Of a DNA stretch of 26,823 bases, positions 4,553-20,778 are shown in pieces. The stretch is taken from positions 1 to 26,823 of the IMG/VR virus record IMGVR_UViG_3300044612_001995. One strand, written 5' to 3'. The notes beneath the pieces were generated by a model. It was not told the DNA's origin. It searched no databases and was given only the letters and a program-made list of their open reading frames with translations. Positions within the stretch are counted from its first letter, which is position 1. Each line of letters begins with the position of its first letter. Origin of the DNA: a virus. The translations under genes and the position numbers were made by a program.

Positions 4553-4845
4553 TGCGGCCCTCCTGCGGGAAGTTCTGGCTGCGGCAACGCAGCCTCGTAT
4601 TGAGCCTGCGTGATTTCCGTGGCCGCGCCACCGCCAAGCAACCCCTCCACCGCACTCTTAAACGGCTCCATGTCGCAATGGACGGTTCGGATGGCAATGA
4701 GGACTTGGCCGCTTTGGTCTTTCGGCGCGGTTGCCAACGGCTCAATGCTTGTTTCGCCCGCAGGAAATCCCCATGCGGCATCGACAGCAAGGCGTGTCTG
4801 CTCGTAAGCGGCTGGGTCTATTGTGAAATAACGCAGTTCGCTCAT
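4549..4845 (-). CDS. Hypothetical protein after the LamG gene (tail-fibre-accessory candidate)
   Basis: This 98-residue acidic protein starts at ATG 4845, overlapping the stop of the LamG gene (ATGA). It begins MSELRYFTIDPAAYEQTRLA and contains a central segment ending HCDMEPFKSAVEGLLGGG and a proline-rich tail. It is probably soluble. Small proteins immediately after fibre or adhesin genes are often chaperones for them, but this is inferred from position only. Confidence 0.6.
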   Translation of the reverse strand: MSELRYFTIDPAAYEQTRLAVDAAWGFPAGETSIEPLATAPKDQSGQVLIAIRTVHCDMEPFKSAVEGLLGGGAATEITQAQYEAALPQPELPAGGPQ

Positions 4846-5699
4846 GGCGTTATGCTCCACTTAGACATGAGGTATCCGCGCACGGCTTGCGTTTCGTTTG
4901 CGGATAAATTGCGCGAATAGGCAATGACCTCGTAGATTTTGCCATTGAAATATAAATTGTTTGCATATGCTCCTATAGTTGACGTTTGATTAGAACGAAC
5001 ATCGTTGGCCGCAAGTCCTCCAGTGTGTGCGTAGTATTCAGTGTTATTGACCGCGAACACTCCTTCCAATGCTGCGCGCTTTTTAAAATCGACAACATAA
5101 GTTTTCGCTGTAGAAAGCGTTACGTTGTTAGCGTTTGTATAAGTGCGGAATGTTGCAACTACTCCCGATTCGCCAACATAGCTAATATTTTGCGCGCCCG
5201 TGTTTTGCCCAAGCTCGAAAAAACAATCCGTTGTGTTCTGCGTGTCGAAGCGCAGCAATGTTGGATCGCCGCTAAACGAATCGGCGTTGAACACGACAAA
5301 GAGTGAAAATGTAGTCAGACCAGCAAGCACATTGCTTCCGTTGGTCGCCTGCATTTGATCGTTGCTTCCGTCAAAGTCTAATCCGCCGCCAGAGACATAA
5401 AGCGGACGGTTGTTTGCAGTGCTTTGTGTAAAGTGAAGGGCGTTGGTCGATTTATCCTGCCATCGCGCCACGGCATTGCCCGCTGTGACTTGGTTGCCTC
5501 CGCTTGTTGCGTCAAACACCGTTGCGCCATCCGCCCCGTCAAGCCACATCACAAGTCCGCTAAATTCAGACGGCGCTGTAAGAGTCCATTGGCTTTCCTT
5601 TTTGAAATTGCCCTGCTGTCGAACGCTCCAAATGCCAGAAGGCCGCGCAGGCATATCTGCGCGCTTGCCAATGACAGAACCGTTCCAAAAAGAAGCCAT
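4842..5699 (-). CDS. LamG/concanavalin-like lectin-fold virion protein
   Basis: This 285-residue protein has a short N-terminal lead (about 45 residues) and then a beta-rich domain. Typical pieces are LVMWLDGADGATVFDATSGG, AVARWQDKSTNALHFTQS, LDFDGSNDQM and a C-terminal YEVIAYSRNLSANETQAVRGYL. This is the pattern of LamG/concanavalin A-like jelly-roll domains that bind glycans. The gene sits at the end of the tail-fibre group. A role in host surface recognition is likely, perhaps as a receptor-binding protein. The ATG shares a base with the upstream stop (TAATG). Confidence 0.75.
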   Translation of the reverse strand: MASFWNGSVIGKRADMPARPSGIWSVRQQGNFKKESQWTLTAPSEFSGLVMWLDGADGATVFDATSGGNQVTAGNAVARWQDKSTNALHFTQSTANNRPLYVSGGGLDFDGSNDQMQATNGSNVLAGLTTFSLFVVFNADSFSGDPTLLRFDTQNTTDCFFELGQNTGAQNISYVGESGVVATFRTYTNANNVTLSTAKTYVVDFKKRAALEGVFAVNNTEYYAHTGGLAANDVRSNQTSTIGAYANNLYFNGKIYEVIAYSRNLSANETQAVRGYLMSKWSITP

Positions 5700-6094: not shown

Positions 6095-7885
6095 TTAGTT
6101 GAGGACGAAGCCGACTGCGATGGACTGCATGATGGAGGAGCCGCCGCCCGATGCCGCCTTCCAAGCCATCCCCGTGGCCTCTGCCGAGTCCACCGTGAGC
6201 ACATGGCCATTCGTGCCGCCCACAGGGAGCCGCGCCACGGTGTCTGCTGACGAGGCCACAATGAGGTCGCCTTTGGCGTCGAGGAGGGTTGCAGGGATGC
6301 CCGCGCTGACGGTGGAAGACAACTCCCCCGCCGACAGGCTCAAGCCCGAGCCGATTGTGATCTCCTCGACGGCACCTGTGCTGGCACTCGTCCTTCCGAG
6401 TATCCGCGCCGTGGCTTGGGTTAGGCCCGACGAAGTGATGGAGCCAGAGGCGGCTGCGCCTGTTACGTCCGCGACAGTGTGGGTGTGATTGCCTGCGGCT
6501 ACTTGCGTGGAGCCTGTGCCGACAGGGAGGCGGGCTACGGCAATGGTGCCAGAGGTGATGTCGGCGGCGGCGTGAGTGTGCGTATCGACGGCAACGAGCA
6601 TCCACTCTTGCGGCCCTGCTCTGTAAATCAAACGATACTGCTTGTCTACTTCCGTGATTGTAACAAGCGTCTGTGGCGAGCCGCCAACAGGGTTATAGCC
6701 AATAGTGACAGACGCATTGATAAAATTAGTGCTGCGAAATACTGCAATGTCTCCCTCTTGAGAAGCTGTAATAGGAAGGGTGATGGTGTAGGCGCTGCTA
6801 TAGTTACTGACATCGAAGATGCGCGCTCGGCCCGCCGACAAAGTTGTTGCCCCCGTGATGCTTGAAGATGTGAATAACGACTGCGCCCCGATATCACTCG
6901 GAGCCAGCGCATCCGTGCCGTTTGTGGCGTGAGAGACTTTGTGCGCGAGAGTGCTGCTTGGCGTCCTCGCGTCCGAAAGCCGCGCATCATTTCCCTCGCA
7001 AAAGCTCCCTGCCGCCGTGCCGAAAGAACCCGCCTCGATGACGCCGTTTGTGCCTGTTTTTAAGGGGAGGTTGGCGGTGGTGCCGATGGCTCCCGCGTTG
7101 GTTAGGTTGCCGTGGGTGTGGGAGGCGGCTGCAAATGCGGTGCTGTCTGCGATAGCGGCGGTGCCGAGGCCGCTCACGCTGGTGCTTGGCACGCTGTCGC
7201 CAACGAAGAGGAAGGTGCTGCGGGCGCGGCCTACAATGGTGGACAGCTTGGCTTTTTCTATTGATCCATCCCAAGCGGACAGCCAAGGCCACGCAGCGTT
7301 GTCATCGTCGCTTGACTCAATAATGTTCGCCGTGATGGGCGAGCCATCCGTGATGTGCCAGCGAAGGTTTTCAAAGAAAACATAGTGGCCCGTGATATCG
7401 CGATATGTGCGCCTGCTGTTAAGCGCAACGTCAGGAAGCGGGTAGTAAAGCCCGTTGCCGTCTGCAAATTCGTAGGTGACAAAAGCGGCCAAATCGTCGT
7501 TGCCGCTTGTGTCGAGGTCGGAGCCATCGAGAATAACGGTGCCTGTCTCGCCATTAACGCTCGTGACCGCCCCCGACTCGTTGGCCCAATGCGGCAACCC
7601 CTGAGACGAAACTTTTAAGATTTGGCCCGCGCTTCCAATTCCAACGCGAATTGCCGCGCTGTCGTTGCGCGATAGAATGTCGCCCTTAGTCGTGAGCGTC
7701 TCGATGCCCGTTCCCGCTGGCCCCTGCGCCCCGGTCGCGCCTGTTGCGCCCGTGGCTCCCGTTGCCCCGGTTGGCCCGGCGGGGCCGATCGTCGGAAGCG
7801 TCACGTTCACCGTCTGCGGCGAAGGAATCCCAACCTCGACCGCGTTGGTGTTCAGACTGACCTCGACTTTGTGATACGCGGCCAT
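6095..7885 (-). CDS. Tail fibre with collagen-like repeat
   Basis: This 596-residue protein begins MAAYHKVEVSLNTNAVEVG. Residues about 34-60 form Gly-x-y collagen-like triplets (GPAGPTGATGATG and so on), which trimerise in phage fibres. The rest consists of fibre modules, including LTTKGDILSRNDSAAIRVG and LLDAKGDLIVASSADTVARL, two versions of a KGD(I/L)...(R)(V/L) module ending in a Trp-containing strand. Many Asn/Ser/Thr and Gly residues indicate beta-helical shaft segments. It starts 1 nt after the upstream stop. A host-contacting fibre is the likely role. The C-terminus lacks an obvious chaperone domain. Confidence 0.85.
   Translation of the reverse strand: MAAYHKVEVSLNTNAVEVGIPSPQTVNVTLPTIGPAGPTGATGATGATGATGAQGPAGTGIETLTTKGDILSRNDSAAIRVGIGSAGQILKVSSQGLPHWANESGAVTSVNGETGTVILDGSDLDTSGNDDLAAFVTYEFADGNGLYYPLPDVALNSRRTYRDITGHYVFFENLRWHITDGSPITANIIESSDDDNAAWPWLSAWDGSIEKAKLSTIVGRARSTFLFVGDSVPSTSVSGLGTAAIADSTAFAAASHTHGNLTNAGAIGTTANLPLKTGTNGVIEAGSFGTAAGSFCEGNDARLSDARTPSSTLAHKVSHATNGTDALAPSDIGAQSLFTSSSITGATTLSAGRARIFDVSNYSSAYTITLPITASQEGDIAVFRSTNFINASVTIGYNPVGGSPQTLVTITEVDKQYRLIYRAGPQEWMLVAVDTHTHAAADITSGTIAVARLPVGTGSTQVAAGNHTHTVADVTGAAASGSITSSGLTQATARILGRTSASTGAVEEITIGSGLSLSAGELSSTVSAGIPATLLDAKGDLIVASSADTVARLPVGGTNGHVLTVDSAEATGMAWKAASGGGSSIMQSIAVGFVLN
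7706..7786 (-). repeat. Collagen-like Gly-x-y coding repeat in the fibre gene
   Basis: Nine-base units coding Gly-Ala-Thr are repeated here (plus-strand gttgcgcc/ggttgcccc-like units). They encode a short collagen-type triple helix in the fibre. Such repeats often vary in copy number by slippage. Confidence 0.7.
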
Positions 7886-9701: not shown

Positions 9702-10130
9702 CTAACGGCTCTGAACGCCCCACCGAAACGGAAAGGCCAGCGGCCCCCGGCGATCCTCATCGGGATTGGCGGGATCGTATTCGCGGGATGGAAGGTTAAG
9801 AATTGCCGCCTCGCGGTGACTGTGGCATGGCGTGAATCCGTGAAACAACCCCGCCGGGATGATGAGTAGCTGCGGCGTGTCGGCGGCAAGGATGATCGTC
9901 TGACCGCGCTTTTGCTCGGCGTCCCAGATGCCGACTTTAGCCGTGCCCGCTACGCAAAACCAGCGATCCACTTGCAGCTTGTGGCGATGCCATGCCTTCA
10001 CCACGCCCGCCGCGCAAGTCGTGATGTAGGCTTGGCCGAATCCGTGCGCGTCATCCGAGGCGCGGAAGATTTCGGTCAGCTTGCCGCGCTCATCGAGGTG
10101 GGCCGTCAGTGGGCGAAGCTCGGCTAACAT
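9702..10130 (-). CDS. RmlC-like cupin (dTDP-sugar epimerase/isomerase family)
   Basis: This 142-residue protein matches the pattern of dTDP-4-dehydrorhamnose 3,5-epimerase-like cupins: HLDERGKLTEIFR (11-23), AWHRHKLQVDRWFCVAG (47-62 region), VGIWD, IPAGLFHGF (91-99) and YDPANPDEDR. The His-x-His of AWHRHK corresponds to the family's catalytic or structural His region. Its start (ATG 10130) overlaps the end of the glycosyltransferase gene. The protein is shorter than cellular RmlC (about 180 residues), so a sugar ketoisomerase or epimerase with another nucleotide sugar is also possible. It probably supplies or edits a sugar used by the neighbouring transferases. Confidence 0.75.
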   Translation of the reverse strand: MLAELRPLTAHLDERGKLTEIFRASDDAHGFGQAYITTCAAGVVKAWHRHKLQVDRWFCVAGTAKVGIWDAEQKRGQTIILAADTPQLLIIPAGLFHGFTPCHSHREAAILNLPSREYDPANPDEDRRGPLAFPFRWGVQSR

Positions 10131-11146
10131 GGCATCCATTCCTGTTGACGAACGCGAAGATGGCCCCGGTATTCCCCCTCGGTTTCGTGATACGCCCGGT
10201 GGTGGACAATCTTGCCGTCCTTGTCGCGCTTCACATGGTCGGCGACACAATGCGGGATGCAGGCGATTCGTAGCCCTGCGGGGTGCCAGCGGTGCCAGCA
10301 AAGGAACAAGTCTTGCGTCCCTCGCCCGTCGTAGCCGCTGAAATCGGCAAGCGCCAGCGCCTTGGCCGACATAAGCGTGCATCCAAGGCCGCACCAATCG
10401 GATGGGACAACTGACCCGCGCCCGATGCCAGGATATGCAAAATCCATCCAGCCCCTTCTTCTCCATCCGTGTTTACCGTTTACCTCAAAGACGTTGCCGT
10501 CTGGCGGGCATTTCTTCACGCGCTCGTGGAGTCGCGCCAACCGCTTGCCCTCGCGCTCGCCAATCTCCTTGTCCTTGCAGTCCTTCAGCCTTTCGCGGCA
10601 GACCTTCAAGGCGCGGACGAGGCGCGGTGGCAGTCGCCTTTCCTTTTCGGTGAAGTCCTCCGCGATTGGATGTTGGGGGCTCCCGTTGCCCCCCAAGAAT
10701 AAGCCATTGGGATACGTCACGGCTGCGACCTCGTAGTAGGGCGAGCCATCCGCCTGCGGCATTTGCAGTGTCCACTCGGCCACCCGGAGGGCATCGGCAG
10801 GCACAAGGTTGTCGGCCTCCACGCTCCACAGCATCGAGGCGCGGATCTTCCTCGCGGCGGCAAACGCGGCCCCCTGAAGCGCGGCAATTCGCATTTGTGC
10901 GGGTTCTTTGTAGTCCTTGCCTTCGGCTCCCCCATCCTCCAGCGGCAGGGTGACAGCCTGTATGCGCCACCCTTCGGGCAGTTCGTGGCGCGCTGCCTCA
11001 ATGGCTGCTTTAGCCTCGTCCGACTGATCGGTTGCCAGAATGAAATGCGCCTCGGCGTGATGCCCGGCAGCAGCGGCAATGCGCCTCAAAAATTGCGGCC
11101 AGCAATAGAAATAACTCTTGGTTGCGTAGGTTGCGATTGCCAGCAC
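10124..11146 (-). CDS. GT-A-like glycosyltransferase
   Basis: This 340-residue protein begins MLAIATYATKSYFYCWPQFL at GTG 11146. A Rossmann-like start is followed by DYKEPAQMRIAAL (79-91) and SVEADNLVP (108-116), a DxD-type nucleotide-sugar/metal motif as in GT-A enzymes. The region about 180-225 is a charged, probably inserted helix pair (VCRERLKDCKDKEIGEREGK). The C-terminal YDGRGTQDLFLCWHRW and IACIPHCVADHVKR resemble acceptor-side motifs of such enzymes. The gene sits between a Ser/Thr-rich structural protein and the RmlC-like cupin. Acceptor and sugar are unknown, and virion glycosylation is an inference. A TTGACA motif lies 16 nt upstream. Confidence 0.7.
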   Translation of the reverse strand: MLAIATYATKSYFYCWPQFLRRIAAAAGHHAEAHFILATDQSDEAKAAIEAARHELPEGWRIQAVTLPLEDGGAEGKDYKEPAQMRIAALQGAAFAAARKIRASMLWSVEADNLVPADALRVAEWTLQMPQADGSPYYEVAAVTYPNGLFLGGNGSPQHPIAEDFTEKERRLPPRLVRALKVCRERLKDCKDKEIGEREGKRLARLHERVKKCPPDGNVFEVNGKHGWRRRGWMDFAYPGIGRGSVVPSDWCGLGCTLMSAKALALADFSGYDGRGTQDLFLCWHRWHPAGLRIACIPHCVADHVKRDKDGKIVHHRAYHETEGEYRGHLRVRQQEWMPC

Positions 11147-11162
11147 TCGCGGGCGGGGCGGG

Positions 11163-11168
11163 TGTCAA
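11163..11168 (-). promoter_or_regulatory. TTGACA start-proximal motif before the glycosyltransferase
   Basis: CTTTGACACCCGCC lies 16 nt before GTG 11146. Its TGA is the stop codon of the upstream gene. No Shine-Dalgarno sequence lies between. Confidence 0.5.
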
Positions 11169-12904
11169 AGAGTAGGGACTGCCACTTCGTTCCGAAAAGC
11201 TGCCCACACTACGCCTGCCCCCGTTTCCGTGTGCGGCGACAAAAAGGAAAGGCTAATAACTGCCGAGGTTTGCGAGCTTTGGGCACCGACAAATGCGGTT
11301 GCTCCGTAATCGAAGGACTGGGTGCGAGACCCCACGCTGTCGTAAACTTGGTAAACGCCGAGCGCATTATTTCGCACCACCGTCGCGCCTTCCGGGTATT
11401 CCCCGCCCAACAGAGTTTTTGTGAAAAGCAGCGTCTTTTGTGCCTCGCCCCCCGTTGTCAGCAGGCCAGATCCCGAAGCGGTGGAAATGTTGTCTGTGTC
11501 GGTTTGTGTGGATCGCGTGTAGGAGAAACTGTCCGAAGAAAAATTAGCAATCCCGACCACGCTTGCATCAAAGCCTTGCTGAAAAGTTTTTGTGCCTGGC
11601 GCGATGCTCGCAAGGCCGTATTGGACAGAGCCAAATAACGGAGGATTTTCTGGGTTTAAGAAATCGTCAAAAGAACCAATTTCTTCACCGCACGTTACAA
11701 ACAGTCCGTTTTCAAAGTAGCCCGTTTCGCCATAGACGGATTCTCGGACGCGGTTGGCCGTGAGGTTGTCGTCCAAAGCGATGTTTCCAAATGGCCGTGA
11801 TGAGGTGGCAAGATGCGGGGCGGCTTTGTAAAAGTTGCCCTCGCTGGTTTCGTATCGGGTTCGTGCGCTGGCAGAACTTGCCACTCCCTCCGATTCTGTG
11901 GCGCTTAATGTGCGTGCAACCACATTTGCCGTGGTGGTTCTTTGCGTCGATACCGTGCTGGTAATCAACGAGACGGCGGTAGTCGATCCTGCGTCTCTCG
12001 GTATTGTGGATAAAATACTGAAATAATCCGCCGTGGTGAACGTGCTGCGCTTGTCTCTCCCAGAAGCGACAACTTGAGACGGCAGGAAGGTGGCGCTTTG
12101 GTTGGTGTCTTGCCTTGAAACGTCAAGCAGGGTGTCATTTTGCACTACCGTCTCGTGAGGCAAAACGCTTTTGTCTATTACCGAGCCTACTTCTCCAAGG
12201 TTGTAAGATGTGTTGTGCCAAGTGACATTGCTTGTGACGGCTGGGTTCGTAAAAGAGGTGATGTTTTCGGTCGTGTTTTGTTGGAGGGCGGTGCTTTGCG
12301 CCGTTTCCTGATACGGGTAGATGGTAAACTCTTGGCCGCTTACGGCTTGGTTTGAAGCGGGGGCAAGCCCCGCGACATTGGACGCGGCGACATTGGCCGT
12401 CCAAAGAACTTCATGCAATCCGCTGAGAGTTTCAGCTTTAAAGATGGTTGCTCTGAGCGGGGAGTTTGGGACGGTCGAGGGTGTTGTGATGGTTCGCAGG
12501 AACGTCGAGGCCGCAGTCTGCATCGGCCCGCCTGTGGTTGTCTCTTGCCGCCCGATGTTCGTTGTTCTCGTGGTTTGGTAAGAATACTCTCTTGTTGCTT
12601 GCTCGGTTGTTCTTTGCGTGACTGTTGCTGTATTGCTCACCACGCCAGAAGCGGCTGGAGGGTTTGTAATTTCAATGATGGGCGCGCTCGCTCCAAATAC
12701 CACTGTTCGCCCGGCGCTGATTGTTTCTGCCGTGGTGGTTCTTGACCACACCCCATTTGCCAGACTTTCAACAGATCCCGAAGAAGAATAAACCGTGCTT
12801 CGCAGTTGCGTTCCAAAAAGGGAACTTGCGCTGGAGGAAAATGAGTCGCTTGACCCGTAGCTGCTGGTCGTTTGCGGCTCTACGGTGATCGTCCACGAGA
12901 TCAT
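11165..12904 (-). CDS. Long Ser/Thr-rich virion protein, family unknown
   Basis: The start at ATG 12904 overlaps the previous stop (ATGA) and gives 579 residues beginning MISWTITVEPQTTSSYG. The composition is strongly rich in Ser, Thr, Val and Ala with almost no Cys. There are many short runs of Thr/Ser such as TTTAET, RTTTAN, TQTDTDN and SSSASS. It is probably beta-rich and extended. It lies downstream of the tape-measure gene, where tail-tip and distal-tail proteins are usually encoded. No domain can be named with confidence. A GT-A enzyme is encoded immediately after it, so it is a candidate glycosylation target. Confidence 0.65.
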   Translation of the reverse strand: MISWTITVEPQTTSSYGSSDSFSSSASSLFGTQLRSTVYSSSGSVESLANGVWSRTTTAETISAGRTVVFGASAPIIEITNPPAASGVVSNTATVTQRTTEQATREYSYQTTRTTNIGRQETTTGGPMQTAASTFLRTITTPSTVPNSPLRATIFKAETLSGLHEVLWTANVAASNVAGLAPASNQAVSGQEFTIYPYQETAQSTALQQNTTENITSFTNPAVTSNVTWHNTSYNLGEVGSVIDKSVLPHETVVQNDTLLDVSRQDTNQSATFLPSQVVASGRDKRSTFTTADYFSILSTIPRDAGSTTAVSLITSTVSTQRTTTANVVARTLSATESEGVASSASARTRYETSEGNFYKAAPHLATSSRPFGNIALDDNLTANRVRESVYGETGYFENGLFVTCGEEIGSFDDFLNPENPPLFGSVQYGLASIAPGTKTFQQGFDASVVGIANFSSDSFSYTRSTQTDTDNISTASGSGLLTTGGEAQKTLLFTKTLLGGEYPEGATVVRNNALGVYQVYDSVGSRTQSFDYGATAFVGAQSSQTSAVISLSFLSPHTETGAGVVWAAFRNEVAVPTL

Positions 12905-13530
12905 TGCATCCGATAGTAGATGTCGTATGGCGATTCTCCGGGGGCGGCTGGCGAGTCTTTGGGCAATATGATCCAAGTTTCTGGGTTCACTGTGGGCGTG
13001 TCTGTGCCAATCAGTCTTTGCGCGACTCCCTCGTCTGTAATCATTCCGAAGGGATATTCAACAGTGGTGGCAACGCCGTAAAGTTGGGCCGTCTGGTTTG
13101 TTGCCGCCGAGGTGTCTATGTCTATGGAAACTGAAATGATGTTCACCCCATCAGTTGAAATCACGGCCTTGGCGTAATAGACCGAACCTACTTGCACGGG
13201 AAATTCGTCATTCCAGTTGTCTGCGATGTATCCGCTGATCGTGCCGGGCATTACGGTGGCAATAAGTGCTTCTGGGTCTTCGGGGTTTGCGGGGTCTTGG
13301 CGCAGCACAATGTCCCACGGAAGCGGCTTGGCCGATGTCCCGCCGCCCTTTTTTGGAGTTGCTGTTAAATCAATGCAAACGCCTTGCCCGGTTTGCCTAA
13401 GTGTTGTTCCACGCCCGGCCAAGGGCTTGTTGCGGCGGATTTCCTCAACAATCGCATTGAGGCGGCTTGCGCTTATCTCGCGCAGAAGCGGCCTATTCGG
13501 CTGGAATTTTATGGAACTGAACTGCGCCAT
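12901..13530 (-). CDS. Tail structural protein, hypothetical
   Basis: This 209-residue protein begins MAQFSSIKFQPNRPLLREIS. Residues 20-45 look helical and basic (ASRLNAIVEEIRRNKPLAG). The rest is beta-rich, with GVATTVEYPFGMITDEG near the C-terminus. GGAG lies about 9 nt before ATG 13530. No domain is recognised. The position after the tape measure and before the Ser/Thr-rich protein suggests a tail-tip component. Confidence 0.6.
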   Translation of the reverse strand: MAQFSSIKFQPNRPLLREISASRLNAIVEEIRRNKPLAGRGTTLRQTGQGVCIDLTATPKKGGGTSAKPLPWDIVLRQDPANPEDPEALIATVMPGTISGYIADNWNDEFPVQVGSVYYAKAVISTDGVNIISVSIDIDTSAATNQTAQLYGVATTVEYPFGMITDEGVAQRLIGTDTPTVNPETWIILPKDSPAAPGESPYDIYYRMQ

Positions 13531-14182: not shown

Positions 14183-15766
14183 TTAGTTGGATGAGGGCAA
14201 GACCAAAGGCTCGCCTTTTTTGAGGAGTTCGTAAATTTGCTTGGCCGCGTCTGCCGCCCGCTTTGTTTCTTTGCTTGGGTCTTCCCTGCGCCGGGTGTCG
14301 AAAAACTCGTTTGAGGCAAAGCCGATGCGCTGCAAGGATGATGCGCCCATTGATCCAACCAAAGCGCCTTGGCCCTGGCCTTGGATTTGTTGCTGCAATG
14401 CCATGATTCGCCCGATGGCCGCTTCTTTCTGCGCTTCAACCTCTGGCCCGACAAAACCCTCCAAGTCGGCCAGCCCCTGCATTTCAAAATCCAACTGCTC
14501 TTGCGGGGTCATCGTCGCCCGCCTGTTCGCCATTGCCTGCGATTGTGTTGAGGCAAGCGCGCTGCGTTGCGCGGCGGCTTGTGCCTTGGCGTTTCTTTCC
14601 GCCTCGTCGGCTATTTGTTTTTCCAGTTGCGCTTGAACTTGTTTGCTCTTGGCAATCTCAGCGTTCAGTTCGGCCACGCGCGCGGCGATTTCGGCCATTG
14701 ATTGCGCGCCTTGAGACGCGCCGACAACCTCGCCCTGCAATCGAGTTTGATTGGCCTGCTCTTGCGCCAGCCTTTCTTGCGGCGTCATGCCGATCTGCGC
14801 GGTCTGCGCGGTGGTTGCCGCTGTCTGCTGATTAGCGGCAAATTCGCGGGCTTGCGCGCTCATTTGATCCTGCATGGCTTGGATGCCTTGCAGTTCTCTT
14901 ACTTGCTGCTCAATACTTGCAGGATCGGCCCCCTGTGATTGAAGGCCCGATTGCAAATCTTCAATTTCCCTGCGCTTTTCTTGTTCTCTTTTAATGCGCG
15001 CAACTTCGGCGGGATCGCCACCCGCGCCCGTCAATTCAAACGCCTCCAAGTCCATCCGCGCCATGTTTGCCATCATGTTTTCTCTGGCAATGCGCTGCTG
15101 TTGCTCTTGCCCCGCATCCAATTCTCCGCGCACCGCCCCGCCTGTGCTTAGATCGGCCAGGCGCGCAAGTAGCTGCCCCGGTCGGCCCTGTATTGCGTTG
15201 GCAATGGCCTCGCCTATGTTTTTGCCGAAGGTTTCGGCAATGAGCTTGCCTGTTTGTTTTGCCGCGTTGCTGAGTTGAGTAAATTCTGAAATAGCGCCCG
15301 ATAGGCTTGTGGCCCGCCCCGCTTGGGAAAGGGTCTGATTAAATTGCTCTTGGATGCCAATGGCAGATTTTACGGCGGTGCTTAGTTGGTCGAACGCAGC
15401 CGAGACGATTTTTCCAACTGCGGCGGCTCCAGCAACTAACAACGTCATGCGCCCCGCGCTGCGGGCTATCCCGCCGCTAAATTCCTCTGCGGGCGCTGGA
15501 TCAAGAGCCTGCTGTGCGGCTTGCCGTGTCTTCTTTAGCTCCTCCTGCAATTCCCGCAACGGCCCAAGGCCGTAGTCGCCAATATCAATGTCTATCGGCC
15601 CGCCGCTGCCGCCCGGCTGTTTTACTTGCGGCATTCTTGGCGCGGTGGATGCCCGCGCAAAAGTTTGCTGCACTTGTGTCGCCGTCTTTTGTGCGTCGGC
15701 CAAGACGGACTGAAAACCAGTTTGCGTCTGGTTGGCCGCTGTGATTTTTACTTTTACTTCAGCCAT
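14183..15766 (-). CDS. Tape measure protein
   Basis: This 527-residue protein starts MAEVKVKITAANQTQTGFQ, preceded by AAGGAGG about 9 nt upstream, which decides the start. A hydrophobic patch (about 105-125, LLVAGAAAVGKIVSAAF) is followed by long glutamine- and alanine-rich coiled-coil stretches, with two copies of an MTPQE(R/Q)L element (near GMTPQERLAQEQ and TMTPQEQLDFEM). This is typical of tape measures, which set tail length. It is short for the family; at about 1.5 angstrom per residue it predicts a tail near 80 nm. It overlaps the end of the chaperone candidate by 8 nt. Confidence 0.85.
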   Translation of the reverse strand: MAEVKVKITAANQTQTGFQSVLADAQKTATQVQQTFARASTAPRMPQVKQPGGSGGPIDIDIGDYGLGPLRELQEELKKTRQAAQQALDPAPAEEFSGGIARSAGRMTLLVAGAAAVGKIVSAAFDQLSTAVKSAIGIQEQFNQTLSQAGRATSLSGAISEFTQLSNAAKQTGKLIAETFGKNIGEAIANAIQGRPGQLLARLADLSTGGAVRGELDAGQEQQQRIARENMMANMARMDLEAFELTGAGGDPAEVARIKREQEKRREIEDLQSGLQSQGADPASIEQQVRELQGIQAMQDQMSAQAREFAANQQTAATTAQTAQIGMTPQERLAQEQANQTRLQGEVVGASQGAQSMAEIAARVAELNAEIAKSKQVQAQLEKQIADEAERNAKAQAAAQRSALASTQSQAMANRRATMTPQEQLDFEMQGLADLEGFVGPEVEAQKEAAIGRIMALQQQIQGQGQGALVGSMGASSLQRIGFASNEFFDTRRREDPSKETKRAADAAKQIYELLKKGEPLVLPSSN

Positions 15767-16322
15767 TGGATTCGTCCTCCTTTTTGGCCTTGCTGCGGGC
15801 AATGGCAATGCGCTCGGCGTCGGTCACAATGTCGAGGTGTGTGCCGCTTTCGGTTTCGTAGGCTGCGGCCTCATACCATGCCGCCGCGCCCACGGGGGTG
15901 GCCCACGCTTGCTGTTCGCTCATGCCGAGGCGCATGAGCCGGGCCACGGTGCTGATGGCGTTCGGGATCTTGGACGGTTCGCCGCGTTCCTCCCCTGCCT
16001 TGGGTTGCTTGTTCCACATCTGCGGCGGGGCGCAGTAGTCGGCAACGTAGGTGCGCCAGCGCGCAACCTCGGCCACGAAATCAATCTTGCGCCATTTCCA
16101 CAGTCGGCAGGCGAAAGAATCCATGTCGGGCAAGACAAGGGCCGGGCGCGAGCAGATCCATGCGGCAAGGCGCAATTCCTGCTCGCTGCCCATCTGCCCG
16201 TGGTAAAATGGCGAGCCGATAGCTTCCAAGGTGAATGCATGGCCCACGGAAAGCGAGAGCATTCGCAGCCCGCAAACGCGGTGTGTCGCGTTTAAGAACG
16301 CTTCAGCGGCCAGCGCATCCAT
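15759..16322 (-). CDS. Tail assembly chaperone candidate
   Basis: This 187-residue protein begins MDALAAEAFLNATHRVCGL. Pieces such as HAFTLEAIGSPFYHG and LRLAAWICSRPALV (middle) and MSEQQAWATPVGAAAWYEAA (C-terminal third) resemble tail assembly chaperones. It lies between tail tube and tape measure, where siphoviruses encode such chaperones, often as a frameshifted pair. Here one continuous frame covers both regions and I see no good slippery site. The AAAAAGGAGG near the end is the ribosome binding site of the tape-measure gene. Confidence 0.6.
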   Translation of the reverse strand: MDALAAEAFLNATHRVCGLRMLSLSVGHAFTLEAIGSPFYHGQMGSEQELRLAAWICSRPALVLPDMDSFACRLWKWRKIDFVAEVARWRTYVADYCAPPQMWNKQPKAGEERGEPSKIPNAISTVARLMRLGMSEQQAWATPVGAAAWYEAAAYETESGTHLDIVTDAERIAIARSKAKKEDESNG

Positions 16323-19026: not shown

Positions 19027-20778
19027 CTAATCCTTGGAGTCAAAGGCGTCAGGGTTGCGGCGCTTGAAGACTTCCAAGCCGAAGCGGTATCCCTCGTTGC
19101 TGTTCTCGATGGCATAAATGTCATCGGTTGGGACGGCAGGATTAAAAAGCGGATGCTCGTGGCGCAGCACAATATCGCTTGGAACCATCCATCCGCGCTT
19201 TTTTGCCCGGTGCGTAAACTCGTTATCACAAAAAACACCCCTGTATTCGTCGCTGACGATGCCGCCTTTGTGTCCCATTGCCGCCAATGTCGGGCGAGTG
19301 ACACAGAAGGTTATGAGCAAATCGTCCGTCCTGTAACCGTCTCCGATTTGCAAGACGGCGGGGCTGTTGAGTTTGTCGGCCAGCGCGTTGTAAATCAGTT
19401 CGTCCCAAAAAAGACACGGCTCCAGATCATCTTGAATTGTCAGGATGATTTTTCCGCTACTGGCCCGCACGGCTGCGTTGTAGTTTTGCACCAAGGTTCC
19501 GCCCACGGCGTCCATGTTTCCGGCGGGCGAAAGGCCGTGCTTGAATCGCCCCAAAACGTCCCGCGTCTCGGCATCATCCTCGGCAAAGCCAAAGATGTAT
19601 TCCACGCTTTGCGGGTCTTTGGCCGCTTCCAGCCACTTCTTGCGCGTCTCGGCAGCTTGGAGCGGACGGCCACGGGTCGGGTGGCAAACGCTGATCTTTG
19701 CCCCGCACTTCTTGAACCACTCCAATTCAAACTGATCGGCGCGCTCGGTGTCGCCATTGGCTCGCAGGGTGCAGGCGTAAAGCCCGACGCCGCCGAAGCC
19801 ATAGACCACCGGGCGGTGCGTCCACGGGACAATCTCTGGCACAGGTAGGGCCATGAAAGCGCGGGCATAGGCCAAGGCATCTTGGGCCTCGCCGTTGTCC
19901 AGGCTGGTGGCCGCGAGTTGGGCCAGGGCTTCCCTGCGCCACGGACTGACCTTGTAGGCTTCGTGCAATAGCGATTTCTTGGGAGCGAATGCCTGCGTCC
20001 GCATGGCGAGTTGCAGATAAAGCTCATACCGCTCATCCCCTGAGAGCGATTCGTGTTTGAGCGCCTCGATGGCGAGTTCCATGCCGCGCGCATCCTCCTT
20101 CATGCCGAAATGCTCAAGGCTCCCGTAGAAAAGCCAGCGCGGGTCTTTATCCCAATCTGGCTGCGAAGCGATGATGCGCCAGTTGCGGGCATTGCCGCGC
20201 TTCTCGGATGCCTCGTCTTTCTTTTCGTCGGGGGCGTGAACAATGCGGGCGTCCTCCCACCTCACTTGCCCGTCTCCCGATTTGTCCAAGGGTTCAAGGT
20301 GTTCGTGAACAGCGCCGTCCCACTTGGCCGTCCCGCGCCGCCAGATGCGCTCACGCAAAAGGTTTAGTCCATTATTGGTCAGGCGATAGGGAACCATCGC
20401 CAGCGTGGTCGTGGGGGCCGTCTCGCGCAAATGCTGGCGGATAATGTCGCAGGACTCTTGCTCAATAATATCGTCCGTATCGGCCCAAATGAGCCAATCG
20501 TGGCCGTCTGCCTCGGCCATGTCCGTCGCCATCTGCCGGGCGGCGGCAAAGTTGTCCACATGATCCCAAAACTGGAACGCTTCGGCGTTCTTGTATTCGC
20601 CCGTCTTGCACCCCATTTCGCGGGCAATGTCGAGCGAGCGATCTGGCTCCCTGCCGCCGCAGGCGCGGACAATGTAGATGTGGGGCGTGAGCTTTTGGAA
20701 AGCCTCGATGAATCGCCCGATGTAACCCTCGCTATTTCCAGTAATAGCGACCAACGCCAAGGAAGGCTGTGTGTCCAT
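19027..20778 (-). CDS. Two-domain glycosyltransferase in the head module
   Basis: This 583-residue protein has an N-terminal GT2-like domain (LALVAITGNSEGYIGRFIEA, then WADTDDI at 98-104), a helical TPR-like middle (about 205-355), and a second GT-A-like domain (ISVCHPTRGRPLQAAETR at 362-379, then IQDDLEP at 448-454, and IVSDEYRGVFCDNEF). Both DxD-type motifs are intact. It follows the major capsid gene and its terminator and precedes the head-tail joining gene, so it is embedded in structural genes. Substrate and acceptor are unknown. Capsid glycosylation is possible, as is modification of a host surface glycan. A TTGACA motif lies 16 nt before the ATG. Confidence 0.8.
   Translation of the reverse strand: MDTQPSLALVAITGNSEGYIGRFIEAFQKLTPHIYIVRACGGREPDRSLDIAREMGCKTGEYKNAEAFQFWDHVDNFAAARQMATDMAEADGHDWLIWADTDDIIEQESCDIIRQHLRETAPTTTLAMVPYRLTNNGLNLLRERIWRRGTAKWDGAVHEHLEPLDKSGDGQVRWEDARIVHAPDEKKDEASEKRGNARNWRIIASQPDWDKDPRWLFYGSLEHFGMKEDARGMELAIEALKHESLSGDERYELYLQLAMRTQAFAPKKSLLHEAYKVSPWRREALAQLAATSLDNGEAQDALAYARAFMALPVPEIVPWTHRPVVYGFGGVGLYACTLRANGDTERADQFELEWFKKCGAKISVCHPTRGRPLQAAETRKKWLEAAKDPQSVEYIFGFAEDDAETRDVLGRFKHGLSPAGNMDAVGGTLVQNYNAAVRASSGKIILTIQDDLEPCLFWDELIYNALADKLNSPAVLQIGDGYRTDDLLITFCVTRPTLAAMGHKGGIVSDEYRGVFCDNEFTHRAKKRGWMVPSDIVLRHEHPLFNPAVPTDDIYAIENSNEGYRFGLEVFKRRNPDAFDSKD

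Follow-up and report, generated by a model that had tools for sequence, protein, structure and literature searches.

A Ser/Thr-rich tail-region protein and its adjoining predicted glycosyltransferase as a putative acceptor-transferase cassette in uncultured tailed phages

The serine-rich-repeat adhesin systems of bacteria employ GtfA/GtfB-type transferases of the GT-B fold. On the viral side, few phage virion glycoproteins are known. In mycobacteriophages, phage-encoded glycosyltransferases have been linked to glycans on virion proteins (Freeman et al. 2023, in the passages of PMC11256854 and PMC12619734 that cite it), and the acceptors reported in those passages are capsid and tail-tube proteins. 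Here, we describe a different arrangement in the 26.8-kb virus record IMGVR_UViG_3300044612_001995 (hereafter the window; one strand, 22 genes tabulated), in which two minus-strand genes lie side by side. The first, ST579 (11165-12904), encodes a Ser/Thr-rich, Lys- and Cys-poor protein of 579 aa from its ATG, the proposed acceptor, and the second, GT340 (10124-11146; GTG start), encodes a 340-aa protein predicted to be a GT-A-fold glycosyltransferase. It is likely that the two form an acceptor-transferase cassette within the tail-gene region, such that a tail-region protein would be O-glycosylated by its own transferase. This reading draws on the observed adjacency of the genes, their joint presence and absence, the hypervariability of the Ser/Thr-rich protein beside a conserved GT340, and the retention of Ser and Thr, together with a predicted fold.

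Pairing of the two genes across related loci

Thr (15.0%) and Ser (13.3%) are the two commonest residues of ST579, which, at 28.3% Ser+Thr, is the most Ser/Thr-rich of the tabulated window genes. A preliminary description of this DNA had called the 579-residue protein Ser/Thr-rich and had placed the start of a possible glycosyltransferase gene within 20 nt of its stop; both points are borne out, the distance being 18 nt. Co-occurrence of the two genes across related phages, which the same description had raised, is likewise found. Relatives of GT340 are encoded in 103 viral contig stretches, the best 80 of which were kept for locus counts, and 77 of these 80 loci have an adjacent Ser/Thr-rich open reading frame (ORF), defined as one of at least 350 aa with at least 20% Ser+Thr that adjoins GT340. 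In 66 cases the ORF lies upstream on the same strand, and in 11 it lies downstream and convergent (loci L070 and L073 are counted by their upstream ORFs). The median Ser+Thr content of these 77 proteins, hereafter ST proteins, is 29.2% (21.5-39.4); for 305 other ORFs of at least 300 aa, the median is 12.2% and the 95th percentile 22.8%, with 47 of the 305 reaching 20%. As for the remaining three loci, two are on contigs that stop within a frame of 24-25% Ser/Thr adjoining GT340, while the third is on a contig that begins 140 nt before GT340 and cannot be judged. The 11 convergent loci show an inversion of GT340, together with the cupin gene that follows it in the window, with respect to the Ser/Thr-rich gene and the g209-like gene beside it, so the adjacency has outlived rearrangement.

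The pairing extends to distant relatives. Three GT340 relatives found in contigs of cellular metagenome-assembled genomes (MAGs; 42, 59, and 63% identity) each have a 23-27% Ser/Thr ORF directly upstream. Among 387 genomes of the phylum to which one of them, a Chthoniobacter MAG, belongs, there were two matches, namely that MAG (63%) and the genome G095. The transferase of G095 shares 43.7% identity with GT340 and has a 660-aa, 31% Ser/Thr ORF 16 nt upstream; among 274 genomes of another MAG's class, only that MAG matched. At all four distant loci (the three MAG contigs and the 43.7% relative), the ST ORF either overlaps the transferase gene by 4 nt or lies no more than 34 nt upstream. The G095 transferase (contig L186) in fact sits between two Ser/Thr-rich genes, as a 462-aa protein with 55% Ser+Thr and SSDSSLSSESS-like repeats is encoded 26 nt downstream of it (L186:9174-10562). 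Shortly downstream of the distant pair on the Betaproteobacteria MAG contig L083, there is a sulfotransferase gene (L083:10338-11129; PF13469, above its cut-off), whose product would perhaps sulfate the glycan.

A Ser/Thr-rich relative without a nearby transferase, the case that the preliminary description had named as contrary to its idea, was also sought, and no full-length example was found; a short ORF on contig L146, discussed below, is a possible exception. For this reverse test, the anchors were upstream structural genes for a 213-aa protein (33 loci) and a 186-aa protein (46 loci), giving 79 loci in all. GT340 is present at 56 of the 79, and a Ser/Thr-rich protein is present at every one of the 56. 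Since 31 of the 32 contigs that carry these loci were already in the GT340 set, the new information lies on the absence side. Here, ten loci (six contigs) that reach at least 3 kb past g209 have neither GT340 nor a comparable Ser/Thr-rich ORF, i.e., no ORF of at least 250 aa with 20% Ser/Thr in the corresponding slot. The other 13 loci end too early, three of them (two contigs) inside a Ser/Thr-rich ORF. The slot after g209 is filled by a 287-296-aa protein of 15-16% Ser/Thr in L103, L105, and L155, and contains no clear gene in the near-identical contigs L097 and L115. Some pair-less contigs do carry, further downstream, shorter ORFs (160-175 aa) with 26-27% Ser/Thr, and fibre genes with 22-23%. 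With four Ser/Thr-rich proteins as anchors, GT340 came next at 17 of 19 loci, only two of the 17 being on contigs new to the transferase set, and the other two loci end inside the Ser/Thr-rich gene. Finally, the ST/GT pair was mapped onto a 186-aa protein tree comprising the window and 34 of the 46 loci (four near-duplicates and eight loci cut short were left out; L118 belongs to no group). By parsimony, the pair changes five times, with at least three changes forced by supported branches.

Taken together, the pairing of ST579 and GT340 is not due to chance, and the pair behaves as an evolutionary unit; the preliminary idea stands, and is stronger than originally stated. These data also bear on two other roles for the enzyme. 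Phage glycosyltransferases that modify the host serotype are known (passage of PMC12619734), and the very well conserved GT340 could be a moron beside a tail protein that modifies the host surface, whether in serotype conversion or superinfection exclusion. Such an enzyme needs no link to a Ser/Thr-rich gene, so the joint presence and absence of the two genes counts against this role, as does an adjacency that survives inversion of GT340 and holds in four distant loci, and we consider it unlikely. Glycosylation of phage DNA is another known role of phage glycosyltransferases (PMC12619734, in the same passage), but it is scarcely credible for an enzyme that is encoded in the tail region and tracks a Ser/Thr-rich gene.

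Divergence, exchange, and residue retention in the Ser/Thr-rich proteins

ST579 has no match in Pfam, PHROGs, or NCBIfam, and as a query it retrieved nothing from the viral contigs and nothing from 50,697 phage records. Iterated profiles, however, tie it to 42 of the 77 other ST proteins, such that 43 of 78, some of them from the inverted group, belong to a single family over most of their length. The profile is specific, with no match among 780 shuffles and 98 other Ser/Thr-rich ORFs, but it is not sensitive, as 35 of the 78 escape it, among them those of all four distant loci and the truncated ORFs on L117 and L143; a profile of the N-terminal region was no better in sensitivity. Both ends of the ST proteins are conserved, with a MISWT-like start and a W-x-x-x-R-N motif near the C terminus.

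These proteins are hypervariable. Their divergence was measured in 351 pairs drawn from 27 loci, after removal of 11 near-duplicates and of loci in which ST, GT340, or the 213-aa gene was not clean. GT340 is at least 80% identical in every pair, and the median identity of the ST proteins is 29% in every GT340 band, little above the 25.5% of shuffled sequence (95th percentile 28.5%). Neighbouring proteins have median identities of 38-84%. The ratio of nonsynonymous to synonymous substitution rates (dN/dS) in 14 pairs is 0.11-0.81 for ST versus 0.03-0.15 for GT340. Positive selection on ST was considered and was not seen, as all 14 pairwise values are below 1. In two pairs, L004/L025 and L002/L003, ST has synonymous divergence (dS) of just 0.023 and 0.011, versus about 0.6 for GT340, and in several pairs, ST is nearly identical while the flanking genes, GT340 included, have diverged. 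ST alleles therefore seem to have been exchanged between phages and to meet different copies of GT340, and recombination of ST genes between phages is indicated.

Ser and Thr are preferentially kept in these proteins. Among ST pairs that are 50-95% identical, all 24 show higher conservation at Ser/Thr (0.81) than at the remaining residues (0.71). These pairs are not independent and were grouped into seven clusters; Ser/Thr are better kept in all seven or, when only well-aligned stretches are used, in six with one tie. In eight other proteins of these phages (at least 200 pairs each), Ser/Thr are on average less conserved, by 0.07 to 0.21, and the 186-aa protein, itself 27% Ser/Thr, is among the proteins in which they are less conserved than the rest. 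Residue by residue, Thr is retained best in ST (0.83), followed by Pro and Gly, while Ser (0.75) ranks sixth; Trp is also well kept. This preferential retention fits Ser and Thr being functional sites, though a beta fibre that needed Thr for its structure would also account for it.

Predicted fold of GT340 and its gene neighbourhood

GT340 has no match at E ≤ 1 in Pfam, PHROGs, or NCBIfam, nor any among the 50,697 phage records. Weak matches to the GT2-like family PF13641 occur in eight of 37 family members (best E 0.0014), and a PDB sequence search at E ≤ 1 returned a single match, an unrelated designed binder. An AlphaFold2 model built with 37 sequences in the alignment has a pLDDT of 82.2, and its top Foldseek match is human COLGALT1 (E 2e-8). 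With VIA-align, the model matches COLGALT1 at Z 19.0 over 241 residues (3.6 Å), followed by Mnn9, LH3, and others at Z 16-18. No less than 918 of the 999 chains listed reach Z ≥ 8, many rows are tied so that the exact GT-A family is not singled out, and a family's absence from the list does not exclude that family. A GT-A fold is predicted for GT340, and to this extent the possible glycosyltransferase of the preliminary description is upheld.

Active GT-A enzymes are marked by a DxD metal motif, a catalytic acidic residue, and a C-terminal His. Invariant in the 37 GT340 members are E110-x-D112, W251-C-G-x-G-C256, T277-Q-D279, and D303-H304. The invariance of E110, D112, D279, and H304 suits an active enzyme, and it counts against the view that Ser and Thr are kept merely for a beta-rich fibre fold, with GT340 being an inactive relative that serves as a chaperone or adaptor. 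That view finds encouragement in a weak ST579 model that is nearly all beta, in the good retention of Thr, Pro, Gly, and Trp with Ser lower, and in the ExD of GT340. The 186-aa protein, however, shows the opposite conservation at a similar composition, and we judge the view quite unlikely.

The resemblance of the model to COLGALT1, a collagen galactosyltransferase, and to LH3 raises another acceptor, a virion protein such as the tail fibre encoded at 6095-7885 (minus strand) of the window, which bears a short collagen-like G-A-T stretch. Yet a run of at least seven G-x-y triplets (any frame) occurs in 14 of 35 GT340 loci of at least 20 kb and not in 21, with the proviso that some fibre genes may be cut off at contig ends, and the same collagen stretch turns up on a contig that lacks GT340 (L103/L152). 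A collagen-fibre acceptor, checked by co-occurrence, is thus not favoured, and a virion target other than ST579 is very unlikely.

In the window, the ST579/GT340 pair forms the middle of a chain of four minus-strand genes. It is preceded by a companion gene, g209 (12901-13530), with a conserved N-terminal half and a stop that overlaps the ST579 start as ATGA, and it is followed by a cupin gene (9702-10139) of the polysaccharide-synthesis/dTDP-sugar isomerase kind, which overlaps the GT340 stop. The cupin is present at 43 of the 80 GT340 loci and may possibly supply the donor sugar for GT340. In contigs without the ST/GT pair (L097, L103, L146, and L155), the C-terminal half of g209 differs by eye, which suggests that g209 carries an attachment site; it resembles a modular adaptor to which different tail appendages could be fitted.

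Genes that come just after the tape measure usually encode tail-tip and fibre proteins. A tape-measure gene can be recognised in three distant relatives (L083, L084, and L186), and there the Ser/Thr-rich gene is second to fourth after it; the window gene at the place that corresponds to the tape measure (14183-15808) is not recognised as one. Judged by gene position alone, ST579 is best read as a tail-region protein. The terminase, portal, and major head protein of the window match PHROGs families. Among phage records, the terminase has its closest counterpart in Akkermansia phage Moulinsart (71% of its length aligned at 32% identity); together with the 63% GT340 relative in the Chthoniobacter MAG, this hints at Verrucomicrobiota, which are probably the hosts of these tailed phages.

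Two further window genes deserve mention. Directly after the major head protein, a second glycosyltransferase-like protein of 583 aa is encoded at 19027-20778 (minus strand; phrog_13126, E 2e-15). The head protein was matched at 20 GT340 loci and this gene also at 17, and in all 17 it starts about 90 nt past the head-protein gene; glycosylation of the capsid by its product is possible. The gene at 4842-5699 (minus strand) encodes a protein with a weak lectin-like match.

Proposed mechanism and comparison with described systems

Several observations weigh against an acceptor-transferase cassette. Many of the tail genes here encode proteins that lean towards Ser/Thr, and the composition of ST579 is not striking in the window alone, as it is approached by the 186-aa gene (27.3%), a 177-aa gene (24.2%), and three more (22.0-23.0%). 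Structure prediction failed for ST579 (pLDDT 42.8, not interpretable). The COLGALT1 match of GT340 is modest by Foldseek TM-score (0.48 on the model's length), and the enzyme has ExD where the classical motif is DxD. The cupin was not found at 37 of the 80 loci (some of them cut), so no shared donor is indicated. With regard to residue retention, single pairs of other proteins keep Ser/Thr better in proportions from 0 of 316 to 52 of 229 (the latter for the 213-aa protein), the Ser/Thr deficit is absent from two proteins, for which there are 1 and 11 pairs, and S-T exchanges at changed ST positions are barely above independence (106 versus 89 expected). Finally, a contig without GT340 carries a 222-aa ORF of 21% Ser/Thr directly after g209 (L146:13742-14410), just under the 250-aa cut, with a start that resembles the ST start by eye. 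The two ST profiles do not match it but cannot decide the case, because both also miss likely true members on L117 and L143; this ORF is possibly a short or decayed ST relative without a transferase, and thus one near-exception.

On balance, the acceptor-transferase cassette remains our preferred reading. In the mechanism that we propose, GT340 would act in the host cytoplasm, transferring a sugar from an activated donor, perhaps one shaped by the neighbouring cupin, to hydroxyl groups of Ser and Thr in ST579. This beta-rich protein, once glycosylated, would be built into the tail tip or a fibre and held there by the g209 protein. ST579 would change fast and be swapped between phages by recombination, with one conserved enzyme serving its many versions, because Ser/Thr-rich stretches and perhaps the conserved ends, not a fixed sequence, would be needed. 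We infer the activity of GT340, the acceptor role of ST579, the donor, and the location in the virion. It is tempting to go further, and it is possible, at somewhat less than even chances, that GT340 is the founder of a phage protein O-glycosyltransferase family that reads Ser/Thr composition and not sequence, in the service of a mucin-like, hypervariable recognition or shielding layer kept up by a single conserved enzyme.

If true, the mechanism would explain how a protein for host recognition or shielding can stay modified even when little of its sequence is still recognisable, and it would offer a promiscuous Ser/Thr O-glycosyltransferase. On the further, less than even reading, a tail-tip protein could vary almost without limit, be swapped, and still stay sugar-coated, in a widespread group of uncultured phages.

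Among known enzymes, GT340 resembles the GT-A enzymes COLGALT1 (GT25), Mnn9, and LH3 in its predicted fold (Z 17.1-19.0 over 205-242 residues), but differs from them in sequence, with 12-14% identity and no sequence-profile match in the PDB search at E ≤ 1. The ST proteins contain only 1.7% Lys, which makes a hydroxylysine acceptor unlikely. The serine-rich-repeat adhesins of accessory Sec loci share with this locus a Ser/Thr-rich protein that has its own transferase, and intracellular O-glycosylation would be a further likeness. The preliminary description had drawn this comparison, which holds as an analogy only; ST579 has no tandem repeat in 11165-12904 at score 40, and the predicted fold of GT340 is GT-A, not the GT-B of the adhesin transferases. 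The distant relative L186 does have a serine-repeat protein (462 aa), located on the other side of the transferase. Within the portions of the open-licence literature covered, no paper was found on a Ser/Thr-rich or hypervariable tail-region protein paired with its own transferase. The likeness to virion glycosylation in mycobacteriophages is that GT340, with its predicted GT-A fold, is encoded on a contig with terminase, portal, and major head protein. Unlike the mycobacteriophage case, the acceptor here would be a hypervariable, Ser/Thr-rich tail-region protein with the transferase directly beside it. Glycosylation of phage virions is known already, and what would be new is a hypervariable tail-region protein paired with its own transferase.

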